A stretch of DNA of 64,000 bases from Actinopolymorpha singaporensis. GTDB taxonomy: Bacteria > Actinomycetota > Actinomycetes > Propionibacteriales > Actinopolymorphaceae. The translations under genes were made by a program, and so were the position numbers. Position 1 is the first letter of the stretch, and the number at the start of each line of letters is the position of its first letter. The notes below the pieces were generated by a model that was not told where the DNA came from, made no database searches, and worked only from the letters and a program-made list of their open reading frames with translations. The stretch lies in the NCBI RefSeq assembly GCF_900104745.1, contig NZ_LT629732.1, positions 5,381,981-5,445,980 on the forward strand, read 5' to 3'. This document shows, one piece after another, positions 1,713 through 14,018 of the stretch.

Positions 1713-3083
1713 TCAGCCGCCGACCGCGACCCCCGCGGGCCAGGGCCCACTGCCGCCCTCGTCGTTCACGACGGTGCCCGCCGGTGCCGGCGAGCCCGCC
1801 CACACCGGACCCTCCGGATAGCGGTAGTCGGCCAGCGTGGCCGGGCGAAGCTCCGCAGACATGCCGGGCGCGGTCGGCGCGGCGTAGGCGCCGTCCACGA
1901 TCCGCACCGGGTCGACGAAGTGCTCGTGCAGGTGGTCGACGTACTCCACCACCCGGTCGGGCCGGTGCCCGCCGACGGCCACCTCGTCGAACATCGCCAG
2001 ATGCTGTACGAGTTCGCACAGGCCGACTCCTCCGGCGTGCGGGCACACCGGCACGCCGAACTTCGCCGCCAGCAGCAGGATCGCGACGTTCTCGTTCACC
2101 CCGCCGACCCGGGCCGCGTCCGGCTGCAGGACGTCGATCGCACCCGCCTGCAACAGCTGCTTGACGATGACGCGGTTCTGGGCGTGCTCGCCGGTCGCCA
2201 CCCGGATCGGGGCGATCTCGCGCCGGATCGCGGCGTGGCCGAGCACGTCGTCGGGCGAGGTCGGCTCCTCCACCCACCACAGGTCGAACTCGCGCAGTCG
2301 GCCCACCCAGCGCACCGCCTCCGCGACGTCCCAGCACTGGTTGGCGTCCACCGCGATCCGGACGTCCGGGCCGACCGCCCGGCGGGCCACGCCCAGGCGG
2401 CGCCGGTCGTCGTCGACGTCCCGGCCGACCTTCAGCTTGATCTGGCCGAACCCGTCCGCGACGGCCTGCCGGGACAACCGGTCGACGGTCGCGTCGTCGT
2501 ACCCGAGCCATCCCGGCGTGGTGGTGTACGCCGCGAGGCCACGTGCACGCAGGCGTTCCTCGCGGGCGGCCCGGCCGGGTTCGGCCGCCCGGAGCAGGTC
2601 GAGCGCCTCCTCCGGCGTGAGCGCGTCACGGAGGTAGCGCCAGTCGACCAGGCCGACGATCTGCTCCGGCGTCATGTCCGCGAGCAGTTTCCACACCGGC
2701 AGGCCCGCGCGGCGGCCGGCGAGATCCCAGACGGCGTTGACGACAGCACCGATCGCCATGTGCATCAGCCCCTTCTCGGGACCGAGCCAGCGGAACTGCG
2801 AGTCGTCCACGAGGTCGAAGTAGACCCGGCCGAGGTCGGCGCAGATCTCCTCCACGTCCCTGCCCACCAGGGCCGGGGCGAGCGCCCGGATCGCGGCACA
2901 CTGCACCTCGTTGCCCCGGCCGATGGTGAAGGCGAAGCCGTGTCCGTCGGGCCCGTCGCTGGTGCGCAGGACGACGTACGCCGCGGAGTAGTCGGGGTCG
3001 GGGTTCATTGCGTCGGAGCCGTGCAGCTCCAGGGATGTCGGGAACCGCACGTCGTGTACGTCGACCGCGACCAGTTTCGCCAC
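1713..3083 (-). CDS. L-fuconate dehydratase (enolase superfamily)
   Basis: Predicted to dehydrate L-fuconate to 2-keto-3-deoxy-L-fuconate, Mg-dependent, cytoplasmic. 456 residues, typical family length. The barrel motifs are all visible: IKLKVGRD (KxK base), AVDANQCWD and [11 protein letters not shown] (metal ligands), ATGEHAQNR (third ligand), and [11 protein letters not shown] (His of the His-Asp dyad). The N-terminal capping domain carries [15 protein letters not shown] and [13 protein letters not shown], features I associate with the FucD subgroup. The GTG at 3083 follows GAACGAGGTGACCCG; upstream extension is open but unsupported. It is divergent from an aldo/keto reductase and a lactonase that supply the preceding pathway steps, which supports fuconate over other acid sugars. 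A related sugar acid (e.g. galactonate) cannot be excluded. Confidence 0.85.
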
Positions 3084-3339
3084 CGGGTCACCTCGTTCCG
3101 GATGTCTGGGGGGGTTGGCTTCTTGTGGCTGCTTCTTTCGGGCATGGCGGTTCGCAACGTCGGCCGGACTACCGGAGACGGCCGCGCACGCGACCAGCCG
3201 AATCGTCAGACGACCACTAGGATCCGGAGTCAGCTTGCCACGTGGCCGGGCGGGGCCGGTCGACTGATCGCGGCGAGCGGCCGTCGGACCGTACGCCACG
3301 CCCCTGCCGTGTGCGAAGCAACGCGAAGCGAGGCGAAGC

Positions 3340-4335
3340 ATGGGCAAGCGGGCCACGCAGCGGCACCGGCTGGGCACGAGCGACGTGGAGGTCACCCGGC
3401 TGGGGCTGGGAACCGCCCCGCTGGGCGGGCTGTTCACCTCCGTCGCGGACGAGACCGCGACCGCGGTGGTGAAGGCCGCGCTGGACGCCGGCCTCAACTA
3501 CCTGGACACCGCTCCGCTCTACGGGCACGGAACCGCCGAGCGCCGGGTGGGCGCCGCGCTGTCCGGAACCGGCCGTTCGGAGTACGTCCTGTCCACGAAG
3601 GTGGGCCGGCTGATCGTGCCCGCGGAGGGCGCGGACGGCGGCGAGGGCGGGCCGAACGCCAACGGGTACGCCGACGCACCTCCGTCGGAGGCGGCGTTCG
3701 ACTACAGCCGGGACGGCATCCTGCGCTCGGTGACCGAGAGCCTGGAACGCCTCGGCCTGGACCGGGTGGACATCCTCTACATCCACGACCCCGACGACCA
3801 CGAGGAGGAGGCCCTCACGGTCGCCTACCCCGCGGTCCGCGAGCTCCGCGACCAGGGCGTGGTGCGCGCGATCGGCGTCGGCATGAACCAGTCCCGCATC
3901 CCGACCCGGTTCGTGCGCGAGACCGACGTCGACGCGGTGCTGCTGGCCGGGCGCTACACGCTGCTGGAGCAGCCAGGGGCGGAGGACCTGCTGCCGGCCT
4001 GCCTGGAGCGGGACACCTCGATCGTGATCGGCGGTGTCTACAACTCCGGTCTGCTGGCCGACCCCCGGCCGGGCGCGACGTACAACTACGCGGAGGCGCC
4101 GGCGCACCTGATCGCCCGGGCACAGGAGCTGGCCGCGATCTGCGAGCGGCACGGCGTACCCCTCAAGGCGGCGGCGATCCAGTTCCCGCTGTGGCACCCG
4201 GCGGTGGCGACGGTCCTCACCGGCGCACGGAGCGTGGCCGAGCTGGAGGAGAACCTCCAGATGATGGAGTACGACGTCCCGGACGCTCTGTGGGACGACC
4301 TCGCGGACGCGGGGGTGAAGCGGTATGGCGCCTGA
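3340..4335 (+). CDS. Aldo/keto reductase, probable L-fucose (D-threo-aldose) 1-dehydrogenase
   Basis: 331-residue TIM-barrel oxidoreductase expected to oxidise the anomeric carbon of L-fucose (or another D-threo-aldose) to the lactone with NAD(P). Seen: [12 protein letters not shown] at the N-terminus; [21 protein letters not shown] holding the catalytic Asp and Tyr; STKVGRL (catalytic Lys); [13 protein letters not shown] (catalytic His); and a C-terminal cofactor-binding [20 protein letters not shown]. The insertion rich in Gly/Asn after STKVGRL is usual in the aldose-dehydrogenase branch. The start at 3340 follows GCGAGGCGAAGC. It overlaps the lactonase gene by 11 bp and is divergent from the fuconate dehydratase, so the three form one catabolic unit. 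Confidence 0.83.
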
Positions 4336-5239
4336 CGCCGGCGCCGGCTCGGCCACCTCCGGCAGGGTGGGCGGCCCTGGCGGGGCGGCCCATCCCGGCG
4401 GCGTGGATGCCCACCACCACGTCTGGGACCTGTCCGTCCGCCCGGAGCCGTGGATCGCAGGGCCGCAGATGGCCCCGATCGACAAGACGTTCCACCTGTC
4501 CGACCTCGAGCCGCACGCGAAGGCGGCCGGGGTGACCCGGACCGTTCTGGTGCAGACGGTGCCCGATTTGGACGAGACGCGGGACTTCCTCGCTCTCGCC
4601 GAGGGCAGCGACCTGGTGGGCGCGGTGACCGGCTGGGTCGATCTCACCGCGGACTCGGTGGCCGACGATCTCGCCGAACTGGCCGCCGCGCCGGGCGGTC
4701 GCTTCCTCCGCGCCGTCCGGCACGGGGTGCAGGGCGAGGAGGACCCGGCCTGGTTGTGCCGCCCCGACGTCCGGCGTGGCCTCGCCGCGGTGGCGGGCGC
4801 CGGGCTGCGCTACGAGCTGCTGACGTTGCCGGAGCAGTTGCCGGCGGCGGTGGAGACGGTGGAGGCACTGCCGGAGGCGGCGTTCGTCCTCGACCACTGT
4901 TCCAAGCCGGAGATCGCCCGGGGCGAACGCGAGCCGTGGGCAGGACTGATCCGCCGGCTCGCCGCGTACCCCAACGTCACCTGCAAGCTGTCCGGGCTGG
5001 TGACGGAGGCCGACTGGGCGTCCTGGGACGTCGCCACGCTGCGGCCCTACGTCGACGTGGTGCTGGAGGCGTTCGGCCCGGACCGGGTGATGTTCGGCTC
5101 GGACTGGCCGGTGTGCCTGCTGGCCTCGTCGTACGCCGACTGGGTGTCGGCCGCCCGGGAGCTGACCGCGCACCTGGACCCGTCCGAACGCGCCGACGTG
5201 TTCGGCGGCACCGCCCGCAGGGTGTACGCGCTGGACTGA
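4325..5239 (+). CDS. Amidohydrolase-family lactonase, probable L-fuconolactonase
   Basis: Expected to open L-fucono-lactone to L-fuconate. 304 residues of the amidohydrolase-2 family: VDAHHHVWDL near residue 30 (HxH metal site), VLVQTVPDLDET, FLRAVRHGVQGEED, FVLDHCSKPEI (conserved His), NVTCKLSGLVTEADW, and FGSDWPVCLLASSYADW with the metal-ligand Asp. The last motif is the family hallmark. The first ~25 residues are Gly/Ala-rich, so the true start may be slightly internal. The ATG at 4325 lies inside the reductase gene, indicating translational coupling. No transporter or 2-keto-3-deoxyfuconate dehydrogenase lies next to it in the window. Confidence 0.83.
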   Translation: MAPDAGAGSATSGRVGGPGGAAHPGGVDAHHHVWDLSVRPEPWIAGPQMAPIDKTFHLSDLEPHAKAAGVTRTVLVQTVPDLDETRDFLALAEGSDLVGAVTGWVDLTADSVADDLAELAAAPGGRFLRAVRHGVQGEEDPAWLCRPDVRRGLAAVAGAGLRYELLTLPEQLPAAVETVEALPEAAFVLDHCSKPEIARGEREPWAGLIRRLAAYPNVTCKLSGLVTEADWASWDVATLRPYVDVVLEAFGPDRVMFGSDWPVCLLASSYADWVSAARELTAHLDPSERADVFGGTARRVYALD

Positions 5240-5313
5240 ACCCGGCTCGCGCCCCGGACTCACCGCCTACTCCGAGATCCGGGCTGTCCCTGCCCTGGTG
5301 TAGAACCTCCGGC

Positions 5314-6780
5314 ATGACCTACCGCATCGCCATCGCCGGCATGTCCACCGAGTCGAGCACGTTCACCACCCACCGCACCGGCCTGGCCGACTTCCGTGTC
5401 GGCCGGGGCGAGGAGCTCGCCGACCGCTACCCGTTCCTGGCCGGCTGGCGGCTGCCGGAGCATCCCGAGGTCGAGTTCGTCCCGTTGCTGCAGGCGTCCG
5501 CGCTGCCGGGCGGCCAGGTGCTGCCGGAGGTGTACGACGCGATCGAGGCGGAGATCCTCGAGCGGCTGCGGGCCGTGCTGGACGAGGGCGAGCTGCACGG
5601 GTTCTACTTCGACATCCACGGCGCGATGGCGGTCGAGGGCCGGCGTGACGCGGAGGCCGCGCTGGCGCACCGGATCCGGTCACTGGTCGGTTCGGACTGC
5701 GTGATCTCGGCGTCGATGGACCTGCACGGCCAGGTGTCGGAGGACCTCGCGGAGACCGTCGACCTGCTCACGGCCTACCGCACTGCTCCGCACCTGGACT
5801 ACGTCGAGACGCGCGAACGGGCGGTCCGCAACCTCGTCCGGTGCCTGGTCGAGGAGATCCGGCCTGTGCGGGCGTGGGTGCGGGTGCCGGTTCTGCTCCC
5901 GGGCGAGAAGACCAGCACCCGGGTGGAGCCGGCGAAGTCCGTCTACGCCTCGGTGGAGGAGGCCGAGCGCCTCGACGGCGTCATGGACGCCTCGCTGTGG
6001 GTCGGGTACGCCTGGGCGGACGAGCCGCGGTCGGCGGCGACCGTCGTGGTGTACGGCACCGACCAGGGCGTGGTCAGCGCCCAGGCCGAGCGGATCGCCA
6101 GGGCCTGGTGGGACGCCCGGCACGAGTTCGAGTTCTGTGCCCCGGCGGGACCTGCCGACTGGTGCGTGGCGCAGGCGTTCGAGTCCGGCCAACGGCCGTT
6201 CTTCGTCAGCGACTCCGGGGACAACCCCACCGCGGGCGGGTCCAACGACGTCGCCTGGCTGCTCGGCCACCTGCTGGCCACCCCGGCGCTGGCCTCCGGT
6301 GAACGCACCGCGATCTGGGCCAGCTGCGTCGCCCCCGACGCCGTACGCACCTGCGTGGACGCCGGTGTCGGCGCTCGGGTCGATGTCCAGGTCGGCGGTG
6401 TCTTCGGCGGCGGCGAGCCGGTGGCGATGAGCGGCGAGGTCACCCACGTCACCCGCGACGACCAGGTGGGCGGTGACATCGCGGTGGTGCGTTCCGGCGG
6501 GGTGTCCGCGGTGCTCACCAGCAGGCGCAAACCGTTCCACTACGTCGCCCACCTGCAGGCGCTCGGGCTGGAGCCGGCCGACCACGACCTGACCGCCGTG
6601 AAGATCGGCTATCTCCAGCCCGACCTCTACCAGGCGGCCAAGGGCTGGGTGCTGGCGCTGACCCCGGGAGGCGTCGACCAGGACCTGCTCCGGCTCGACT
6701 ACCAGCACGTCGTCCGGCCGGTGCACCCGCTGGACGACGACCTCGCCGACCCCGACCTGACTCCGGTGATCTTCGGGTAG
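5314..6780 (+). CDS. M81 family metallopeptidase (MlrC-like)
   Basis: 488-residue protein of the DUF1485/MlrC family, named after microcystinase C, which cleaves small peptides with a metal. Motifs: IAIAGMSTESSTF at the start, DGFYFDIHGAM-type block GFYFDIHGAMAVEGRRDAE, ISASMDLHGQVSEDL, and TAYRTAPHLDYVETRERA, which together give the metal-binding His/Asp set. The C-terminal domain has FVSDSGDNPTAGGSNDVAWLL. The natural substrate is unknown for nearly all members; they are often found with catabolic genes, as here behind the fucose block (74-bp gap). The ATG at 5314 gives the family N-terminus; the ribosome site is weak. Confidence 0.85.
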   Translation: MTYRIAIAGMSTESSTFTTHRTGLADFRVGRGEELADRYPFLAGWRLPEHPEVEFVPLLQASALPGGQVLPEVYDAIEAEILERLRAVLDEGELHGFYFDIHGAMAVEGRRDAEAALAHRIRSLVGSDCVISASMDLHGQVSEDLAETVDLLTAYRTAPHLDYVETRERAVRNLVRCLVEEIRPVRAWVRVPVLLPGEKTSTRVEPAKSVYASVEEAERLDGVMDASLWVGYAWADEPRSAATVVVYGTDQGVVSAQAERIARAWWDARHEFEFCAPAGPADWCVAQAFESGQRPFFVSDSGDNPTAGGSNDVAWLLGHLLATPALASGERTAIWASCVAPDAVRTCVDAGVGARVDVQVGGVFGGGEPVAMSGEVTHVTRDDQVGGDIAVVRSGGVSAVLTSRRKPFHYVAHLQALGLEPADHDLTAVKIGYLQPDLYQAAKGWVLALTPGGVDQDLLRLDYQHVVRPVHPLDDDLADPDLTPVIFG

Positions 6781-6863: not shown

Positions 6864-7703
6864 ATGGCCGGATTGCGACTGGACGACCTCAGCGTCGAGG
6901 GCGTGTGCACGTCCTGGTCGCTGACCGTGCCCGTCGGCACCGTCCGCGCGGCCGTCGTACGTGACCAGGAGTCGGTGCGCGACCTGCTCGAGGTGGTGCT
7001 CGGGCTGGTCGCACCGACCGGCGGACGGGTACTCGTCGACGACGTGAACGCCCTGGAGCAACCCGACGACCACCACCGGCGCCGACGGCACCGGGCCGGC
7101 AACGACGACCAGTGCCGGGTGCGGTACGTCCCGGCCTCGGGCGGACTCGAACCCGGGCTGACCCTCCAGCAGAACCTCACCCGCGCGAGCTGTCCCACGG
7201 TCCGGGTGTCCCGCCGGCGGGCGGCCGCGCAGGCCCGGGACACCGCGACCCGGCTCGGGCTGCGCCGACTGCTGGGTCGCTACCCCGAACAGCTCACCGT
7301 GGGCCAGCGCCAGCTCGCCGGGTTCGCGATGGCGCTGTGCTGGCGGCCGTGCGCGCTGGTGGTGGAGGACTCCCCCGACCTGCCCACGTGGGACGCGGCG
7401 CTGGAGTTCGAACGCCTGCGGCTGGACCCGGCGGCTGTGCCCGGGCCGAGGGGGCTGTTCGCGGAGGTGGCCGGGCTGGTGCTCACCACCGACCCGGCCC
7501 GCACCCGGCTGCTCGACCCGGACCCGGTTGGCGTACAGCCCGCGAGTGTCGCCGGCCTTGGGGACAGGCGGGGCGACCACGACAGGAACGACGACGACGG
7601 CGACGACGACAGGGGCGACGGCGACGGCGAGCCGTCCGGCCGGGCCGGTGAGCGCGTCGGAGGCACGTCCCGGGACACTGGCCGCGGCAGCCGCCATGCC
7701 TGA
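6864..7703 (+). CDS. ABC-transporter ATPase-like protein without Walker A (pseudo-ATPase)
   Basis: 279 residues that align to an ABC nucleotide-binding domain in order: LRLDDLSVEG (first strands), GLVAPTGGRVLVDDVNAL (the segment after the P-loop), RYVPASGGLEPGLTLQQNL (Q-loop region), LGLRRLLGRYPEQLTVGQRQLAGFAMAL (signature helix) and RPCALVVEDSP (Walker B). The P-loop is absent: the expected GxxGxGKS/T is replaced by VRDQESVRD at about residues 33-41. The signature is LTVGQ instead of LSGGQ, and Walker B ends E-D rather than D-E. So it probably cannot hydrolyse ATP. The C-terminus is an Asp/Arg-rich tail. The ATG at 6864 follows GGGGAGC; a GTG at 6828 is possible. It overlaps the next gene by 8 bp. 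Confidence 0.7.
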   Translation: MAGLRLDDLSVEGVCTSWSLTVPVGTVRAAVVRDQESVRDLLEVVLGLVAPTGGRVLVDDVNALEQPDDHHRRRRHRAGNDDQCRVRYVPASGGLEPGLTLQQNLTRASCPTVRVSRRRAAAQARDTATRLGLRRLLGRYPEQLTVGQRQLAGFAMALCWRPCALVVEDSPDLPTWDAALEFERLRLDPAAVPGPRGLFAEVAGLVLTTDPARTRLLDPDPVGVQPASVAGLGDRRGDHDRNDDDGDDDRGDGDGEPSGRAGERVGGTSRDTGRGSRHA

Positions 7704-9279
7704 GCCGCTCGCGCCGACCCGGCGAGCCGTCCTGCGCGCGGCGGCCCTGACCCCGCTGGCCGTAGCCGCCACGGGCTGCGGCGGGTCCACCGTCCTCGGC
7801 GACCGCCCCACGGTTCGGGTCGCCGTGAGCTGGAGCGCGGGTGAGCTGGGGGCGTTCCGCGACGTGCTGGCCGGGCTGAACCACCTGCCCGGCTTCGGGC
7901 CGATGACCTACGACGTGACGCCGGTGCCGTTCGGGGACGACATCGGGACCGCGCCGGCGGCGCGCGGCGCGGGACGGCTGGACCTCGTGATGCTGCCGCT
8001 TCCGGGTGAACTGCGCCGCCACCTGGACACGCTGGCGCCGATCCCCACCGACCTGTGGCCGGACTCCCCCGTCGGGTCGGCCGGGTCCGCCGCTCGATAC
8101 GCACCAGTGTGGCGGTCGCTGCTGTTCGCGGCCGGCCCGCGCGCGAACGGTCCCGGCCGCCTCCTGCCGTACGGCCTGCCGTTCAAGATGTCGAACAAGT
8201 CGGCGGTGTGGTACGACCGCGACCTGTTCCGCCGCCTGCACCTGCGGCCGCCGAGCACCTGGGCCCAGTGGCTGCGGCTCAACCAGGCCCTGCGGTCGGC
8301 AGGCCGGCGCCCCCTCGCCCTCGGCGTGGCCGACGGGTGGTCGCTCACCGACTTCTTCGAGAACGTCCTGGTCGGCACCTCGCCCTCGACGTACGAGCGA
8401 CTGGCCCGCGACCCCGCACACCGGCCCGCCCTGTGGGGCAGCGCACCCGTGCGGGCGTGCCTGCGCCGCCTGGCCGACCTGTGGAGTCCGGCCGGAACAC
8501 TGGCCGGCGGCGTGACCGGGTCGCTGGTCCGGCAGTTCCCCGAGGCAGTGCTGGAGGTGTTCGGCTACCACCGGGCCGCGATGGTGGTGGTGGCCGACTA
8601 CGCCGAGCCGTACGTACGCCGGTTCGCCACAGGTGACGGCGACAACTCCCCCGGCAGGTCCTCCTCCGGCAGGCTCCCCGCCGGCCACGGATCGGTGCGC
8701 GGGTCCGGCGGCACCGACGACCCGGGCCGCATCGGGGTGTTCCGCTTCCCGCGGATGTCGTCCGACCTGCCTGCGCCGCTGGTCGCCGGCGGCGACGTCA
8801 TGGTGCTCACCCGGCCCGCCGGTCCGAACGCTGTCGACCTGCTCCGCCGGCTCGCCCACCCGCTCGCCCCACGTCCGTGGATCGCGAGTACGGGCGGCTT
8901 CATCGCCGCGGACCACGACACGCCCGCCGGCTCGTACTCGCCGCAGGCCGCACCCCTCGCGGCCGAACTGCGCACCGGCACCTTCCACTTCGACCTGTCC
9001 GACCAACTCGGCGCGGTCGGTTCCCGGGAAGGCATGTGGCGGGCGCTGAAGGACTTCCTGGTCGACGTGTCGCCGGAGCACGACGGCGGCGAGGGCCGGA
9101 CCGTGGACGCGGCCGTCGAGCGGTTCGTCGCCCGGATGCGGCTGGCCGAGGAGCGCGAGCGGGCGTCCGACCCCGAGGACCCCGAGGACCCCGGAGACAC
9201 CGGAGACCCCGGAGACCCCGGAGACCCCGGCGGCACGTCCCGGGACACCGGCACCGGGACCGGAGGCGGCCGATGGTGA
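7696..9279 (+). CDS. Extracellular solute-binding lipoprotein with Tat-type signal
   Basis: 527 residues. The N-terminus TRRAVLRAAALTPLAVAATGC combines a twin-arginine motif with a lipobox, so it is likely exported folded and lipidated. The body resembles family 1 ABC solute-binding proteins: LPYGLPFKMSNKSAVWYDRDLFRRL, PSTWAQWLRLNQALRSAGRRPLALG and WIASTGGFIAADHDTPAGSY are typical lobe landmarks. A Ser/Gly-rich insertion interrupts the second lobe around residue 320. The C-terminus ends in an acidic Asp-Pro-Glu/Gly tail made by 9-bp DNA repeats. It overlaps both neighbours by 7-8 bp. The ligand cannot be predicted; sugars are usual for the family. Confidence 0.78.
   Translation: MPEPLAPTRRAVLRAAALTPLAVAATGCGGSTVLGDRPTVRVAVSWSAGELGAFRDVLAGLNHLPGFGPMTYDVTPVPFGDDIGTAPAARGAGRLDLVMLPLPGELRRHLDTLAPIPTDLWPDSPVGSAGSAARYAPVWRSLLFAAGPRANGPGRLLPYGLPFKMSNKSAVWYDRDLFRRLHLRPPSTWAQWLRLNQALRSAGRRPLALGVADGWSLTDFFENVLVGTSPSTYERLARDPAHRPALWGSAPVRACLRRLADLWSPAGTLAGGVTGSLVRQFPEAVLEVFGYHRAAMVVVADYAEPYVRRFATGDGDNSPGRSSSGRLPAGHGSVRGSGGTDDPGRIGVFRFPRMSSDLPAPLVAGGDVMVLTRPAGPNAVDLLRRLAHPLAPRPWIASTGGFIAADHDTPAGSYSPQAAPLAAELRTGTFHFDLSDQLGAVGSREGMWRALKDFLVDVSPEHDGGEGRTVDAAVERFVARMRLAEERERASDPEDPEDPGDTGDPGDPGDPGGTSRDTGTGTGGGRW
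9171..9231 (+). repeat. 9-bp tandem repeats encoding an Asp-Pro-rich tail
   Basis: Units of the type GACCCCGGA/GAGGACCCC repeat about seven times at the end of the binding-protein gene and encode DPEDPEDPGDTGDPGD. The unit length is a multiple of three, so copy changes would lengthen or shorten the tail without a frameshift. Confidence 0.75.
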
Positions 9280-11063
9280 TCCACAGTCACCGCGGCCTGC
9301 GGCTGGAGGTCACCAGCCGGCCGATGTCCGGCCCGCTCGTCCCCGGCGGCCGCGGCTTCGCCGGGTTGTACGCAGCCCTGCTCGTGGCGGCCGCCACGCT
9401 CCTGGTCGCGCTGCTGGTGGTCCCGACGCTCCTCACCGCCGGCTCGGCGCTCGGGTCGCCGCGCCGGCCGCACCTCGGGTACCTCGCCCAGGTGTTCACC
9501 GACGGGGACTCCCGACGGGCTTTCCTGAACACCATCGGCTGGCTGGTGGTGGCGCTGGCACTGGTGCTGGTCGGCTTCTGGATCGCGCTGCTCAGCCGGC
9601 GGCTCGGCCGCTGGTCGGTGGCTTTCCTCAACGTGCTGATGTTGCCGTTCGGCCTGTCCGCACTGGCGTCCGGCGCGGCCTTCCGGATCATCTTCGACCC
9701 CGCACCCGAACGCGGAACCGCCACCGCCATGCTGACCTACCTCTTCGGCGGCAGCCCGGTCTGGCTCGGCCCGTGGTGGGTCTGGTGGGTGCTGGTGTCG
9801 GCGTTCGCCTGGACCTGGCTCGGCTTCGTGGTGTCGTTGTTCCGGGCCGGCCTGGAGGCGATCCCGCCCGAACTCATCCGCCGCGCCCGGTTGCAGGGAC
9901 CGACCGGCCGACTGGACGGCGTGTGGCGACTTCAGTGGCGGATGCTCCGGCCGGTCACCGCGGTCATCGTCCTCACCCTCCTCGTCGCGGCCGCCCGGAT
10001 CTTCGACCTGGTGCTGATCGTGGTGCCGGTGCCGATGCAGGACGAGGTGGACGTGGTGTCGGTGCGCTGGTGGCGGCTCACCACGTCGGCCACGGAGCAG
10101 GGCGAACCCGCAGCGATCGCGCTCGTCCTGCTCGCGGTGGTGGCCGCAGCCGCACTGGGCGCCCGCAAGGGAATGCGCATCCCGCACGGCGTGCCCCAGC
10201 CGCCTCCGCCGTGGTGGCGCCGCCAGTTGCTGGCCGGCTGGCGGCGCCGCGTCCCGTGGCTGAGCGCCACGGTCGGGATCGCGGTCAGCCTGCTGTGGGC
10301 GTTCCCGTTGTTCGTACTCCTGGCGACCGCGATCCGCGCACCGGGCGACGCCGGCATGCTCGGCTGGTGGCAGCCCGTGGGCCACCTGCTCAGCCTCGCC
10401 TCGCTGGCGGAGGTGTGGAACGCCGGACTGCCCGGCGCGCTGCTCGGAACCCTCGGCGTGGCCACCGGCTCCGCGCTGCTCGTGGTGAGCATCGCGGTGG
10501 TACCCGCACATGCGCTCGCGGCCGGGGTCGTACGCGGCCGGGCGCTCACCGTCGTCCTGGCCGTCCTCAGCGTCCTGGCCGTGCTGCCGGTGCAGATGTA
10601 CGTGGGTCCGCTGCGCCAGGCGTTCACCGCGGTAGGCCTGACGGGCTCACGGCTGCCGCTGGTCCTGATGCACGCCGCGGCCGGGCTGCCGTTCGCCATC
10701 CTGCTGCTGCGGGCGGCGCTGTCCGCGGGCAACGAGGGCCGCTACGCCGACGCGTTCGGCGGCCTGACCGGCTACCGCACCGGGGCGACCCGCGTGTGGC
10801 GTACCACCGGGCCGGCGCTGGTGGCGGTGGCGGTGGTGGAGTTCGTCCTGGTGTGGGACGACTTCATCGTGAGCTTCCTGGTCAGCGGCCCGGGCGCCAG
10901 CCCGCTCACGCTCGTGCTGTGGGGCGAGGCGCGGCAGTTCGCCACCTCGACCGGGCCGGTCGCCGCGGCGGCGGTCGTCTCCGCGGCAGTGCCGTCGATC
11001 CTCCTGCTGCTGACCTGGCGGCGCTGGGTGGTCCCCGGCCTCACCGGCGGGGTGTTGCGATGA
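9273..11063 (+). CDS. ABC permease, two MalF/MalG-like halves fused
   Basis: 596-residue membrane protein containing two binding-protein-dependent permease domains in one chain. The first half has LNTIGWLVVALALVLVGFWIA and an EAA-type loop ELIRRARLQGPTGRLDGVWRL before LRPVTAVIVLTLLVAAARIF. The second half, after a cytoplasmic linker PQPPPPWWRRQ, has LLWAFPLFVLLATAIRAPG and an EAA-type loop GRYADAFGGLTGYRTGATRVW. Both EAA loops, which normally dock onto the ATPase, depart from the usual EAA-x3-G pattern, in line with a degenerate ATPase partner. About twelve membrane segments are visible. The ATG at 9273 overlaps the previous gene by 7 bp; the stop overlaps a further ATG. Confidence 0.78.
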   Translation: MVIHSHRGLRLEVTSRPMSGPLVPGGRGFAGLYAALLVAAATLLVALLVVPTLLTAGSALGSPRRPHLGYLAQVFTDGDSRRAFLNTIGWLVVALALVLVGFWIALLSRRLGRWSVAFLNVLMLPFGLSALASGAAFRIIFDPAPERGTATAMLTYLFGGSPVWLGPWWVWWVLVSAFAWTWLGFVVSLFRAGLEAIPPELIRRARLQGPTGRLDGVWRLQWRMLRPVTAVIVLTLLVAAARIFDLVLIVVPVPMQDEVDVVSVRWWRLTTSATEQGEPAAIALVLLAVVAAAALGARKGMRIPHGVPQPPPPWWRRQLLAGWRRRVPWLSATVGIAVSLLWAFPLFVLLATAIRAPGDAGMLGWWQPVGHLLSLASLAEVWNAGLPGALLGTLGVATGSALLVVSIAVVPAHALAAGVVRGRALTVVLAVLSVLAVLPVQMYVGPLRQAFTAVGLTGSRLPLVLMHAAAGLPFAILLLRAALSAGNEGRYADAFGGLTGYRTGATRVWRTTGPALVAVAVVEFVLVWDDFIVSFLVSGPGASPLTLVLWGEARQFATSTGPVAAAAVVSAAVPSILLLLTWRRWVVPGLTGGVLR

Positions 11064-11096
11064 GCGGGGTGCTGCGATGAGCGGGGTGCTGCGATG
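11060..11096 (+). repeat. 17-bp repeated ATG/TGA relay before the STAND gene
   Basis: The end of the permease gene and the spacer consist of a 17-bp unit (ATGAGCGGGGTGCTGCG) at 11060-11076 and 11077-11093, followed by a third ATG at 11094 that starts the next protein. Each unit reads ATG AGC GGG GTG CTG CGA TGA, so each six-codon mini-frame ends on a TGA that overlaps the next ATG. The permease itself ends GGVLR-stop, the same residues, so the repeat arose by duplicating its 3' end. Confidence 0.85.
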
Positions 11097-14018
11097 AGTA
11101 CGCCGCCGGTGGACGACCGGCCACCGAGCGCTCTGCCGGAGACCGGCACCGCTTCGGCCGGGCCGGGTCAGGGCCCGGGCGGCCCTCCGTCGGGCCCCGG
11201 CTACCAACCGGGCTCGGTGCGACCACCCGAACGCGCCGTCCCCGCCGAGGTCACCGATCTCGGCGGCCCAGAGCCGTGGATGCTGCGCCGCCCGCGTTCG
11301 GGTCCGCTCCACTTCCTCCTGCGCAGCACCAGCGCGATCGCCCTGGCACTGCTCAGCGGCGTGGCGGTGAACGTCCTCACCGACGTGTGGAACACCAGTC
11401 CCCTCGGCACCGACCTCAACGGCGCGGTGCGGACCGGACTGGTGGTGGTGCTGGTCGGTGTCGGACTGGTCACCGTGATCCTCCGGGTGCTCGAGCGGCG
11501 GCGCGCCCAGGCCGCCGGCCGGGGCAGGGAGCCGGCGCTGGTCGCCCCGGGTACGCCCATCCGGCCCGCCTGGCACCGGGCCAGGCCGGTGCTGGACGAC
11601 CGGGACGCCGCCGTCGCGCACGGGGTCCGCGCCCTGCGCGAGCACGGTGTCGCCGCGATCGTCGGCGAGCCCGGCACCGGCACCTCGGCGGTGGCCGACG
11701 GCGTCGTGCACGCCCTCCTTGAGCTGGGCACCATCCGGGCCGGCCAGGTCGCGCCGTTCGACCTGCGCGGCTGGGCGTGGGAGCCGGACAGCCCGCTGAC
11801 CCTGGCGAGCCATCTGCTGCCGGCGTTCGGGCAGACCGCGCCGACGTCGGACGCCGACCTGCCGGAGGCGGCCCGCCGGCTGCACGGCGTACTCACCGAA
11901 CGCCGGGTACTGCTGGTGCTGGACAACCTCACCGCGACCAGCCAGCTGGAGTGGCTGGCACCGGTGCTGTCCGCCCGGCCGCGCGAACCCCGGCTGCTCG
12001 TGGTCGGGCGGCCGGGGCTGGCCGAGCTGTTCGAGCCGTTCGAGGGGGGCGAGCCCGCAGTGCCGTATCAGGCGGCCCACGTCGGCCCGGCCGACCAGTC
12101 CGCTGGTCCCGACGGCGACGGAACGCCCGTCCGGCCGTACGAAGTGGTGACGCTGGCGCCGGTGGGCATCGAGACCCTCCGCGCGGTCTGGGTGGCCGCG
12201 GGCGGACCGAGCGACCTGCCCGGTGGCTGGCTGGACCGCGTACTCCCCCGCTGCGGCGGCCTCCCCAAGGCAGCACACGACCTCGCCCGCGAGTTCACCC
12301 GTCCGGGCGCACCGTGGACGCCGGAGGAACTCCTCAGCGCGTTCGGCGCGTTCCGCGCCAAGTCCTGCCGGCCCGGGATGGAGGCGGTCTGGACCGCGAT
12401 CCTGGAACGCACGGGGGACAGCCTGTCCCGGCGCGGCAGGTTGCTGCTGGGCGCGCTGGCCGAGCTCTCGGTGACAGAGCTCACCGTGGAGGCCATCGAG
12501 GCGGTACGCGGCAGCCTGGACGACCTGATCGAGATCCTGGAACGCGGGGAGGACCCCCTACCGGGCAGGCAGGTCGAGCCCCCACCCGATCCGGTCGCCG
12601 AACTGCGTGACCGCCGGCTCATCCGGGAGACCGCGGCCGGGCGGTACCGTCTGCCGGACGAGATTCGGACGGTGGTCCGCGCACTGGGAAACTCCTCAGA
12701 GGGCGCTCCGGGCGCGGCGGTGGCCCGGCAGGCACTCGTCCGCCACTACGCAACCCTGGCCCACACCTGGATGCGGGCGCTGGACTCCCCTCGTGGCGCC
12801 GCGGCGGCGGCCCGGTGGTTCGAGACGACGGAGCCACTGCTGGACGCACTGCTGGCGGGCGCTCCACGCGACGAGGAGCCCGGGCTCGATGCAGCAACGG
12901 CCACAGGATGGGGCGCGAGTTCCGGGCGCGGACCGGATGCCGGGCACGGAATCGGCCTGGGTGCCGGTGGGCGTGCAGGTCCGGGTGCCGGTGCGGGTGC
13001 GGGTCTGGGTTCCGGCCTGGTCGACGACCTCTGCGCCCTCGCCGACGCCCTGGACTGCTGGCGCGCCCGGACCGGCCGGCCCGGCGACCCGGGCGGACAG
13101 CCCGCGGAGTTCGTCCGCGTCCTGCGACGGTCGCGGCGGCCGGACCTCGCCCAGCTCGCCGGGATCCGGCACGCCGCCGCACTGCGCCAGGCGGGACGGC
13201 TGGCCGAGGCGGAGAGCGAACTCACGCGGGTCGCGCACACCCGGCTGCCGGTCCGCAACCGCAGGTACGCCTCCGCCCTGCAGGCACGCCGGCACCACGA
13301 GACCGCGCTGCACCTGCTGGCACTGGCCGCCGCCACCGACGATCCGACCGCCGCGGGAGTACGACTGCGCGACGCCGAGCAGGAGCTCTACCTGTGCTGG
13401 GCCGCACTGCCGGTTCGGGACGTGTCCGGCGAGGTGACCACGCTGCTGACGATGGCGGAGGTCCACCTGCGCCAGGGACTGCCCGACCGGGCGCTGGACC
13501 GGCTTGACCTGGCCGAGCTTCGGGCCGCCGACAGCGCCGACCCGAGTGGACTGGCGTACACCCACGAACTCCGCGGCGTCGCCGCCTGGATGCAGGGCAG
13601 GTCCCCGGCGGCGGTCGTTCGCTGGCAGCGCGCGCTCACCGGGTTCCGCCAGATCGCCGACACCACCGGCCAGGCCAGGTGCCTGCAGCACCTCGGCTCG
13701 GCCGTGCTGGTCGCCCCCGAGCTGACCGGGCTGTTGCTGGAGGAACGCCGCCGCCCGCACGACGAGGTGGCAGCGGCCCGGCAGGCGCAGGTCTGGCTGG
13801 AACGCAGCCGGCGGCTGCGCAGCGGGCCACCGACCGCGGTGGCCGAGGGGTACCTCACGCTGGCACGTCGGCACGCCCGCCGCGGCGGTGTCGTGTCGCC
13901 GCCCGGGCCGGAGGAACTCCCCTCCGATCCGCAGCCGCCGCGGCCGGAGTCCGTGCCGGCCACCCGGATCGGCCGGTTCCTCGCCGGCTTCGGCCGCCGT
14001 ACCTCCTCCCCCCACTGA
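11094..14018 (+). CDS. Membrane-anchored STAND/NB-ARC-like protein with altered P-loop
   Basis: 974 residues. Order: Pro/Gly-rich cytoplasmic leader (1-60), two membrane helices (about 79-97 and 112-131), then a nucleotide-binding domain, then winged-helix-like and TPR-like helices. The P-loop reads GEPGTGTS at 191-198, so the invariant lysine is threonine (T197). Walker B is RRVLLVLDNLT with Asp277, followed by the sensor-like PRLLVVGRP. A Gly/Ala repeat linker sits near residues 610-645. Beyond it are paired helices such as LAEAESELTRVAHT and LPDRALDRLDLAELRAADSA typical of TPR arrays. STAND proteins usually act as switches with helical sensors; whether this one binds nucleotide is open. 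It is coupled to the permease gene by the 17-bp relay. Confidence 0.68.
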   Translation: MSTPPVDDRPPSALPETGTASAGPGQGPGGPPSGPGYQPGSVRPPERAVPAEVTDLGGPEPWMLRRPRSGPLHFLLRSTSAIALALLSGVAVNVLTDVWNTSPLGTDLNGAVRTGLVVVLVGVGLVTVILRVLERRRAQAAGRGREPALVAPGTPIRPAWHRARPVLDDRDAAVAHGVRALREHGVAAIVGEPGTGTSAVADGVVHALLELGTIRAGQVAPFDLRGWAWEPDSPLTLASHLLPAFGQTAPTSDADLPEAARRLHGVLTERRVLLVLDNLTATSQLEWLAPVLSARPREPRLLVVGRPGLAELFEPFEGGEPAVPYQAAHVGPADQSAGPDGDGTPVRPYEVVTLAPVGIETLRAVWVAAGGPSDLPGGWLDRVLPRCGGLPKAAHDLAREFTRPGAPWTPEELLSAFGAFRAKSCRPGMEAVWTAILERTGDSLSRRGRLLLGALAELSVTELTVEAIEAVRGSLDDLIEILERGEDPLPGRQVEPPPDPVAELRDRRLIRETAAGRYRLPDEIRTVVRALGNSSEGAPGAAVARQALVRHYATLAHTWMRALDSPRGAAAAARWFETTEPLLDALLAGAPRDEEPGLDAATATGWGASSGRGPDAGHGIGLGAGGRAGPGAGAGAGLGSGLVDDLCALADALDCWRARTGRPGDPGGQPAEFVRVLRRSRRPDLAQLAGIRHAAALRQAGRLAEAESELTRVAHTRLPVRNRRYASALQARRHHETALHLLALAAATDDPTAAGVRLRDAEQELYLCWAALPVRDVSGEVTTLLTMAEVHLRQGLPDRALDRLDLAELRAADSADPSGLAYTHELRGVAAWMQGRSPAAVVRWQRALTGFRQIADTTGQARCLQHLGSAVLVAPELTGLLLEERRRPHDEVAAARQAQVWLERSRRLRSGPPTAVAEGYLTLARRHARRGGVVSPPGPEELPSDPQPPRPESVPATRIGRFLAGFGRRTSSPH

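Follow-up and report, generated by a model that had tools for sequence, protein, structure and literature searches.

A tight operon of four head-to-tail genes, here called A, B, C and D, lies on the plus strand at positions 6864-14018 of a 64,000-nucleotide stretch of the Actinopolymorpha singaporensis genome (NCBI RefSeq assembly GCF_900104745.1, contig NZ_LT629732.1, positions 5,381,981 to 5,445,980), which we call the window. The host genome comprises 6.4 Mb in one contig. The predicted products are a pseudo-ATP-binding cassette (ABC) protein, a solute-binding protein (SBP), a fused permease and a STAND-like NTPase/TPR protein (Table 1). A and B overlap by 8 bp, and B and C by 7 bp; a preliminary description of the window had noticed these overlaps and an ATG/TGA relay after them, and the coordinates and couplings were borne out. 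In every locus read, the conserved core, as recognized from sequence, is the binding lipoprotein, the fused permease and the TPR protein with its N-terminal hairpin. Every ATP-using part examined is degenerate or missing in the alignments, and the permease has lost the motif on which an ATPase docks. We discuss here whether this unit is a sugar importer that has become a receptor.

Table 1. Positions of the four genes and of the features within them (window coordinates)
Feature	Position	Strand	Remarks
A, pseudo-ABC protein	6864..7703	+	279 aa; degenerate at Walker A; signature LTVGQ; ED at Walker B; without H-loop His
A, stretch aligned with Walker A	6954..6983	+	VVRDQESVRD instead of GPSGxGKST (alignment)
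A, Walker B acidic pair	7365..7370	+	Glu168-Asp169, DE swapped to ED (alignment)
B, Tat lipoprotein, sugar-type SBP (SBP_bac_1)	7696..9279	+	527 aa
B, lipobox Cys28	7777..7779	+	invariant in 27 aligned sequences
C, fused permease	9273..11063	+	596 aa; halves related to SugA and SugB
C, first coupling loop	9864..9950	+	without EAA motif
C, second coupling loop	10722..10811	+	without EAA motif
17-bp tandem repeat at the C/D junction	11060..11097	+	ATGA stop/start relays; two 6-codon mini-ORFs (MSGVLR)
D, membrane-anchored STAND-like NTPase/TPR protein	11094..14018	+	974 aa
D, N-terminal hydrophobic hairpin	11307..11492	+	two likely transmembrane helices, read by eye
D, P-loop	11664..11690	+	GEPGTGTSA, Thr197 replaces Lys
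D, TPR region	13161..13703	+	matched in every lineage read

Loss of the ATP-using parts

Protein A of the window matches Pfam ABC_tran (2.3e-6, 28.7 bits, cut-off 25), and its homologues from Kribbella and locus L143 fall below that cut-off. We aligned 42 distinct A sequences from four lineages together with two intact ABC proteins. The Walker A lysine is found in none of the 42, its column being occupied by Ala (21), Arg (12), Val (7), Gly (1) and Ile (1). The Q-loop glutamine is likewise found in 0 of 42 (Ala in 40, Pro in 1, Ser in 1), and the Walker B Asp-Glu pair is turned into Glu-Asp in all 42. The H-loop histidine is also seen in 0 of 42, where 35 rows are gapped at its column, so that the alignment is loose at this motif. 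What is still conserved in A is the stretch around LVPAxGGLLPHLT and an Arg-rich former signature.

The NTPase region of D was read in seven genes of the Actinopolymorphaceae and in seven of g354, a genus of another order of the same class. The P-loop lysine is absent from all 14, replaced by Thr in 12 and by Ser in two (that of locus L053 was read by eye from one frame). A Walker B-like LLVLDN or LLLLDN is present, and Pfam AAA_22, NB-ARC and nSTAND1 match only below their cut-offs. The preliminary description had pointed out that both proteins lack the P-loop lysine, A having no Walker A at all and D having Thr197. This proved correct in the window, where Thr197 stands in GEPGTGTS, and is conserved across species, and no intact P-loop was found in A or D of any unit examined.

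In addition to this loss, the NTPase itself is missing from several lineages. D consists of the hairpin and the TPR part in Kribbella (423-448 aa) and in a metagenome-assembled genome (MAG) of the Streptosporangiales (520 aa). In Nocardia, the hairpin is followed by a piece matching the post-NTPase part and then by the TPR part. In the midpoint-rooted permease tree, the MAG joins Kribbella with support of 1.0, so a single loss of the NTPase suffices for these two; Nocardia stands apart. Because D of Kribbella, the MAG and Nocardia goes without it, the predicted STAND NTPase is dispensable, and the conserved putative output piece is the TPR part. Pfam TPR_12 exceeds its cut-off in D of Kribbella (31 of 30.1 bits), whereas D of the window, of Nocardia, of the MAG and of L143 falls short of it. 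No kinase match was obtained in D from these five sources at E<=1. In L053 (genome G006, own family), D lies in two reading frames.

The halves of the permease C are nearest, among solved structures, to SugB (4.6e-17) and SugA (2.7e-15) of the trehalose importer (best chains). With Pfam BPD_transp_1 (cut-off 26.4), C scores 19 bits in the window, 25.2 in Kribbella and 33.6 in L143, and Nocardia C gives no match. The EAA motif, on which the ATPase docks, was absent from the window permease and from every relative scanned. It was scored as the best fit per sequence to the six fixed positions of EAAxxDGA. The 47 rows of the family (45 distinct, two Nocardia sequences being present twice; L123 covers the C-terminal half only and L114 is shortened) reached 2-4 of 6 at scattered places. 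This is the same level as that of 1000 shuffles, which were made from the window permease halves only and gave 2-5 with a mode of 3. Control sugar-permease open reading frames (ORFs) kept the motif in 32 of 33, with scores of 6 (18 ORFs), 5 (14) and 4 (1); they come from 22 loci, and about 31 are distinct because L045 and L141 are one place. Since the first EAA residue varies in mycobacterial sugar permeases, according to the accessible part of one report (PMC8603345), we also scanned with a relaxed pattern. It matched 4 of 35 family sequences, at none of the loop positions.

Conservation of the loops gave the same contrast with the controls. Among 12 diverse members, conservation of the EAA windows ranks at the 2nd and 8th percentiles within their halves; the control windows rank at the 94th and 60th (9 and 11 sequences). 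This comparison favours the controls in that ORFs without an EAA-like motif or spanning both halves were left out of it, although the EAA scoring kept them. The contrast is tempered within single lineages, where the percentiles of loop 1 and loop 2 are the 29th and 76th in Kribbella, the 27th and 59th in Nocardia, the 81st and 31st in g354, and the 5th and 7th in the Actinopolymorphaceae. A fair reading is that the coupling loops were not abandoned but remodelled separately in each lineage, a Gly being left as a remnant. The preliminary description had called the SBP and the permease apparently intact except for weak EAA loops; both are well conserved, and "weak" understated the loss in the permease.

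Distribution and conservation of the unit

A permease search of 117 genomes gave matches at E 7e-129 or better in seven of the eight own-family genomes listed (none in G007) and in 32 Kribbella genomes. At least three Kribbella genomes had no match, and since the 53 matchless genomes were not listed, these counts do not yield a fraction for Kribbella. The gene order A-B-C-D is identical in the 20 loci read from the own family and Kribbella. With the MAG included, A and D are open in 23 of 23 Actinopolymorpha, Kribbella and Streptosporangiales loci (the start of A is unresolved in the MAG, L072), and B and C were matched in these loci by tblastn. The permease is also present in 7 of 16 genomes of g354, where all four genes occur in each of the seven loci read, and in 63 of 98 Nocardia species sampled, where 22 of 22 loci read have B-C-D without A. 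The ABC genes that lie near the Nocardia units L116 and L123 have an intact Walker A and are on the opposite strand. Thus, the neighbourhood of four genes proposed for a search in the preliminary description is conserved, with Nocardia having three of them. Even samples of the phylum (396 genomes) and the class (374 genomes) yielded as clear members G350 and G581 (both Nocardia), G864 (g354) and the own genome; few candidates were scored per genome in such large groups (three in these samples), which makes absences there weak. In the genomes searched, the distribution is patchy.

All four genes are under purifying selection and in use, as indicated by dN/dS values (omega) of 0.04-0.41 in eight species pairs. 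The values for A are 0.05-0.22, which in the Actinopolymorpha pairs refer to its first 226 codons only. The permease has the lowest value in all eight pairs, never above 0.134. It is also the most conserved protein of the unit, with 95-97% identity between the closest Actinopolymorpha relatives (97% to that of Actinopolymorpha rutila) against 78-82% for A, B and D.

Protein B matches sugar SBPs of the PDB. It exceeds the cut-off of Pfam SBP_bac_1 in the window (3.6e-6) and matches it in Kribbella (2.2e-10), and the Nocardia SBP has no Pfam match. A twin Arg with a lipobox was found by regular expression in 49 of 51 sequences, and the remaining two have the twin Arg together with a Cys that lies close to a Pro. 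In the sequence alignment, 37 residues are invariant across 27 sequences of all lineages; 13 of these are aromatic and six acidic. This strong conservation suggests that distant actinobacteria may share one ligand.

A proposed receptor derived from a sugar importer, and its alternatives

To import, such a complex requires ATP sites and a dimer of ABC proteins, together with coupling helices matched to that dimer. Since the ATP sites are destroyed in every A read, the ABC protein is missing in Nocardia and the coupling loops are altered, a receptor is the simplest reading. A canonical importer is very unlikely on these motifs, and the earlier remark that such an importer would be dead is strongly supported, since all homologues examined share the losses and purifying selection acts on the genes. 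On balance, we lean slightly towards the view that the unit is a former CUT1/SugABC-like sugar importer that has turned into an ATP-independent transmembrane receptor. We infer that an extracellular ligand would be bound by lipoprotein B and that loaded B would dock on permease C, which would shift its conformation without ATP cycles. This shift would be read in the cytoplasm by the pseudo-ABC protein A, where present, and/or by the TPR protein D, and D would hold or free a partner as the output. The dead STAND domain of D would serve as a fixed scaffold and not as a switch. The ligand-sensing complex with STAND/TPR output that had been proposed from the window fits best among the options, with the correction that its NTPase is dispensable and its TPR part is the conserved piece.

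The receptor reading is best compared with two known systems. In GlnH-GlnX-PknG of actinobacteria, an SBP lipoprotein signals towards a TPR kinase (partial texts of PMC6069109 and PMC9769921). Like the unit, this system combines an SBP lipoprotein with a membrane relay and a TPR protein, all encoded in a single conserved operon of actinobacteria. However, GlnX has predicted four-helix-bundle sensor domains whereas the unit has an ABC permease fold, and PknG is a kinase whereas D has no kinase match. In the maltose system of E. coli, idle MalFGK2 keeps the STAND protein MalT at the membrane via MalK (PMC10427625, in part). Here too, an ABC importer is combined with a STAND protein, which is tethered to the membrane by the ATP-binding subunit. 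However, the ATPase MalK is active and MalT activates transcription as a working STAND protein, whereas both P-loops of the unit are dead; moreover, D carries a hairpin of its own, and none of its matches to a DNA-binding domain exceeded a cut-off. Judged by its composition, the unit belongs to neither system. MalT is named many times, in the portion available, in a report on STAND proteins with a TPR sensor (PMC6468293). Residues 747-868 of D match NF053617 of the AfsR-type STAND/TPR regulators (2.1e-8), but with 32.6 bits the match does not come near the family cut-off of 1430, and D has the hairpin and lacks a DNA-binding domain match. To LpqY-SugABC and other CUT1 importers, the unit is similar in its sugar-family lipoprotein SBP, its SugA/SugB-related halves and, except in Nocardia, its operonic ABC-fold gene; it differs in the dead or missing ATPase, the lack of EAA, the fused halves and the hairpin TPR protein. 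No description of such a system was found in the open-access literature, most subscription papers being outside coverage, in agreement with the preliminary description, which knew of none. An anti-phage defence system was considered and rejected, with 0 PADLOC families at E<=0.01 for six proteins.

Several points weigh against a receptor. Loss of motifs is not proof of loss of transport, and some coupling loops are conserved inside single lineages, so something may still be docking there. No effector domain was found among profile matches in D of the five genomes scanned. The flanks yield no partner: among 688 gene calls in 53 loci, no more than three gene families not belonging to the unit are shared by two lineages. 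The predicted structure of A alone has a mean pLDDT of 58, which is weak and was not used as evidence. Finally, the host genome carries MsiK/UgpC-like ATPases, with eight matches to NF008653 at E<=1e-60, two of them over the curated cut-off.

These ATPases bear on the idea that the unit is a real importer which borrows an MsiK/UgpC-type ATPase shared within the host, A then being either a vestige or a regulatory subunit. Streptomyces is known to have sugar importers that use the separate ATPase MsiK, Nocardia units do without A, and the SBP and permease are well conserved. We nevertheless regard this as unlikely, because the EAA motif kept by control sugar permeases is missing in the family, and an MsiK-dependent permease would not be expected to retain a degenerate ABC gene with ED in 42 of 42 sequences. 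The foreign ATPase that had been offered as an option from the window is thus weakened by the loss of the docking motif, although candidate ATPases do exist in the genome.

It is quite unlikely that C is an ATP-independent transporter or channel that uses facilitated diffusion or an ion gradient and is gated by the TPR protein. The permease is the most conserved part of the unit by both identity and omega, which would suit such a role, but from general knowledge of type I importers, a tight hold of the SBP on its ligand would hinder passive uptake that lacks ATP-driven release. We hold it to be just as improbable that the unit is a complex for envelope assembly or scaffolding. In that case, other proteins would be organised by the permease fold and the TPR protein, and binding of the ligand would only position the complex. 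In favour of a scaffold, no catalytic domain is recognised in the hairpin TPR protein D of Kribbella, the MAG and Nocardia, and the unit occupies one chromosomal place within Kribbella, where it precedes a gene that we take to be RadA-like in 19 of 19 loci (L073-L091; presumably DisA-like gene in 17 of 19). However, the many invariant residues of the SBP and its lipobox point to a bound ligand. A decaying importer operon of pseudogenes, which the motif losses and the split D of L053 might suggest, is highly improbable and was rejected as a recent event on the open A and D frames, the purifying selection and the identical losses in separate families, yet decay could apply to single genomes such as that of L053.

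As for the receptor, a more far-reaching proposal is that it represents an undescribed class, in which the SBP/permease body of a sugar ABC importer has become an ATP-free ligand-gated signalling complex with the pseudo-ABC and lysine-less STAND/TPR proteins as fixed relays, in Kribbella, the Actinopolymorphaceae, Nocardia and part of another order. We put this forward tentatively, with rather more doubt than confidence. If true, ABC importers would be convertible wholesale to receptors with the motor discarded, and ligand-driven coupling between SBP and permease alone could pass a signal across the membrane. The ABC-transporter-like genes of many Nocardia and Kribbella would then not be transporters. 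The absence of the motor makes signalling without transport directly testable, and if signalling were shown, this would be a new class of receptor.

Flanking genes and the C/D junction

The flanks were clustered in 53 loci (4 Actinopolymorpha, 1 MAG, 19 Kribbella, 22 Nocardia and 7 g354) with a crude gene caller, which missed or misplaced some A and D genes. Of the families shared across lineages, one is an MFS transporter (14 Kribbella, 2 Nocardia), one occurs in two g354 loci and one Nocardia locus, and one in one Kribbella and one g354 locus. The flanks differ from family to family and vary within Nocardia. In Actinopolymorpha, we take them to be genes of sugar-acid catabolism with CehA-like and M81-type proteins, and in Kribbella presumably GH20, MFS, methyltransferase, RadA and DisA genes. 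The genes upstream of the unit at window positions 1713-6780, presumably an enolase-superfamily dehydratase, an aldo-keto reductase, an amidohydrolase and an M81-type protein as in a sugar-acid catabolic cluster, are common to Actinopolymorpha loci only. The neighbours thus gave no lead to the function.

Coupling of C to D was read in the 20 loci of the own family and Kribbella. In 17 of them, the two genes overlap by ATGA or GTGA; two others leave distances of 13 and 31 bases from C to the start of D, and in L053 D is split between two frames. In the window, the 17-bp tandem repeat repeats the stop/start word ATGA, which creates the two 6-codon ORFs between C and D. Among relatives, the junction is a plain ATGA overlap in L048 (same genus), has one additional unit in L051 and is a variant in L050. 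Thus, the tandem repeat alters the spacing of C and D between close relatives.

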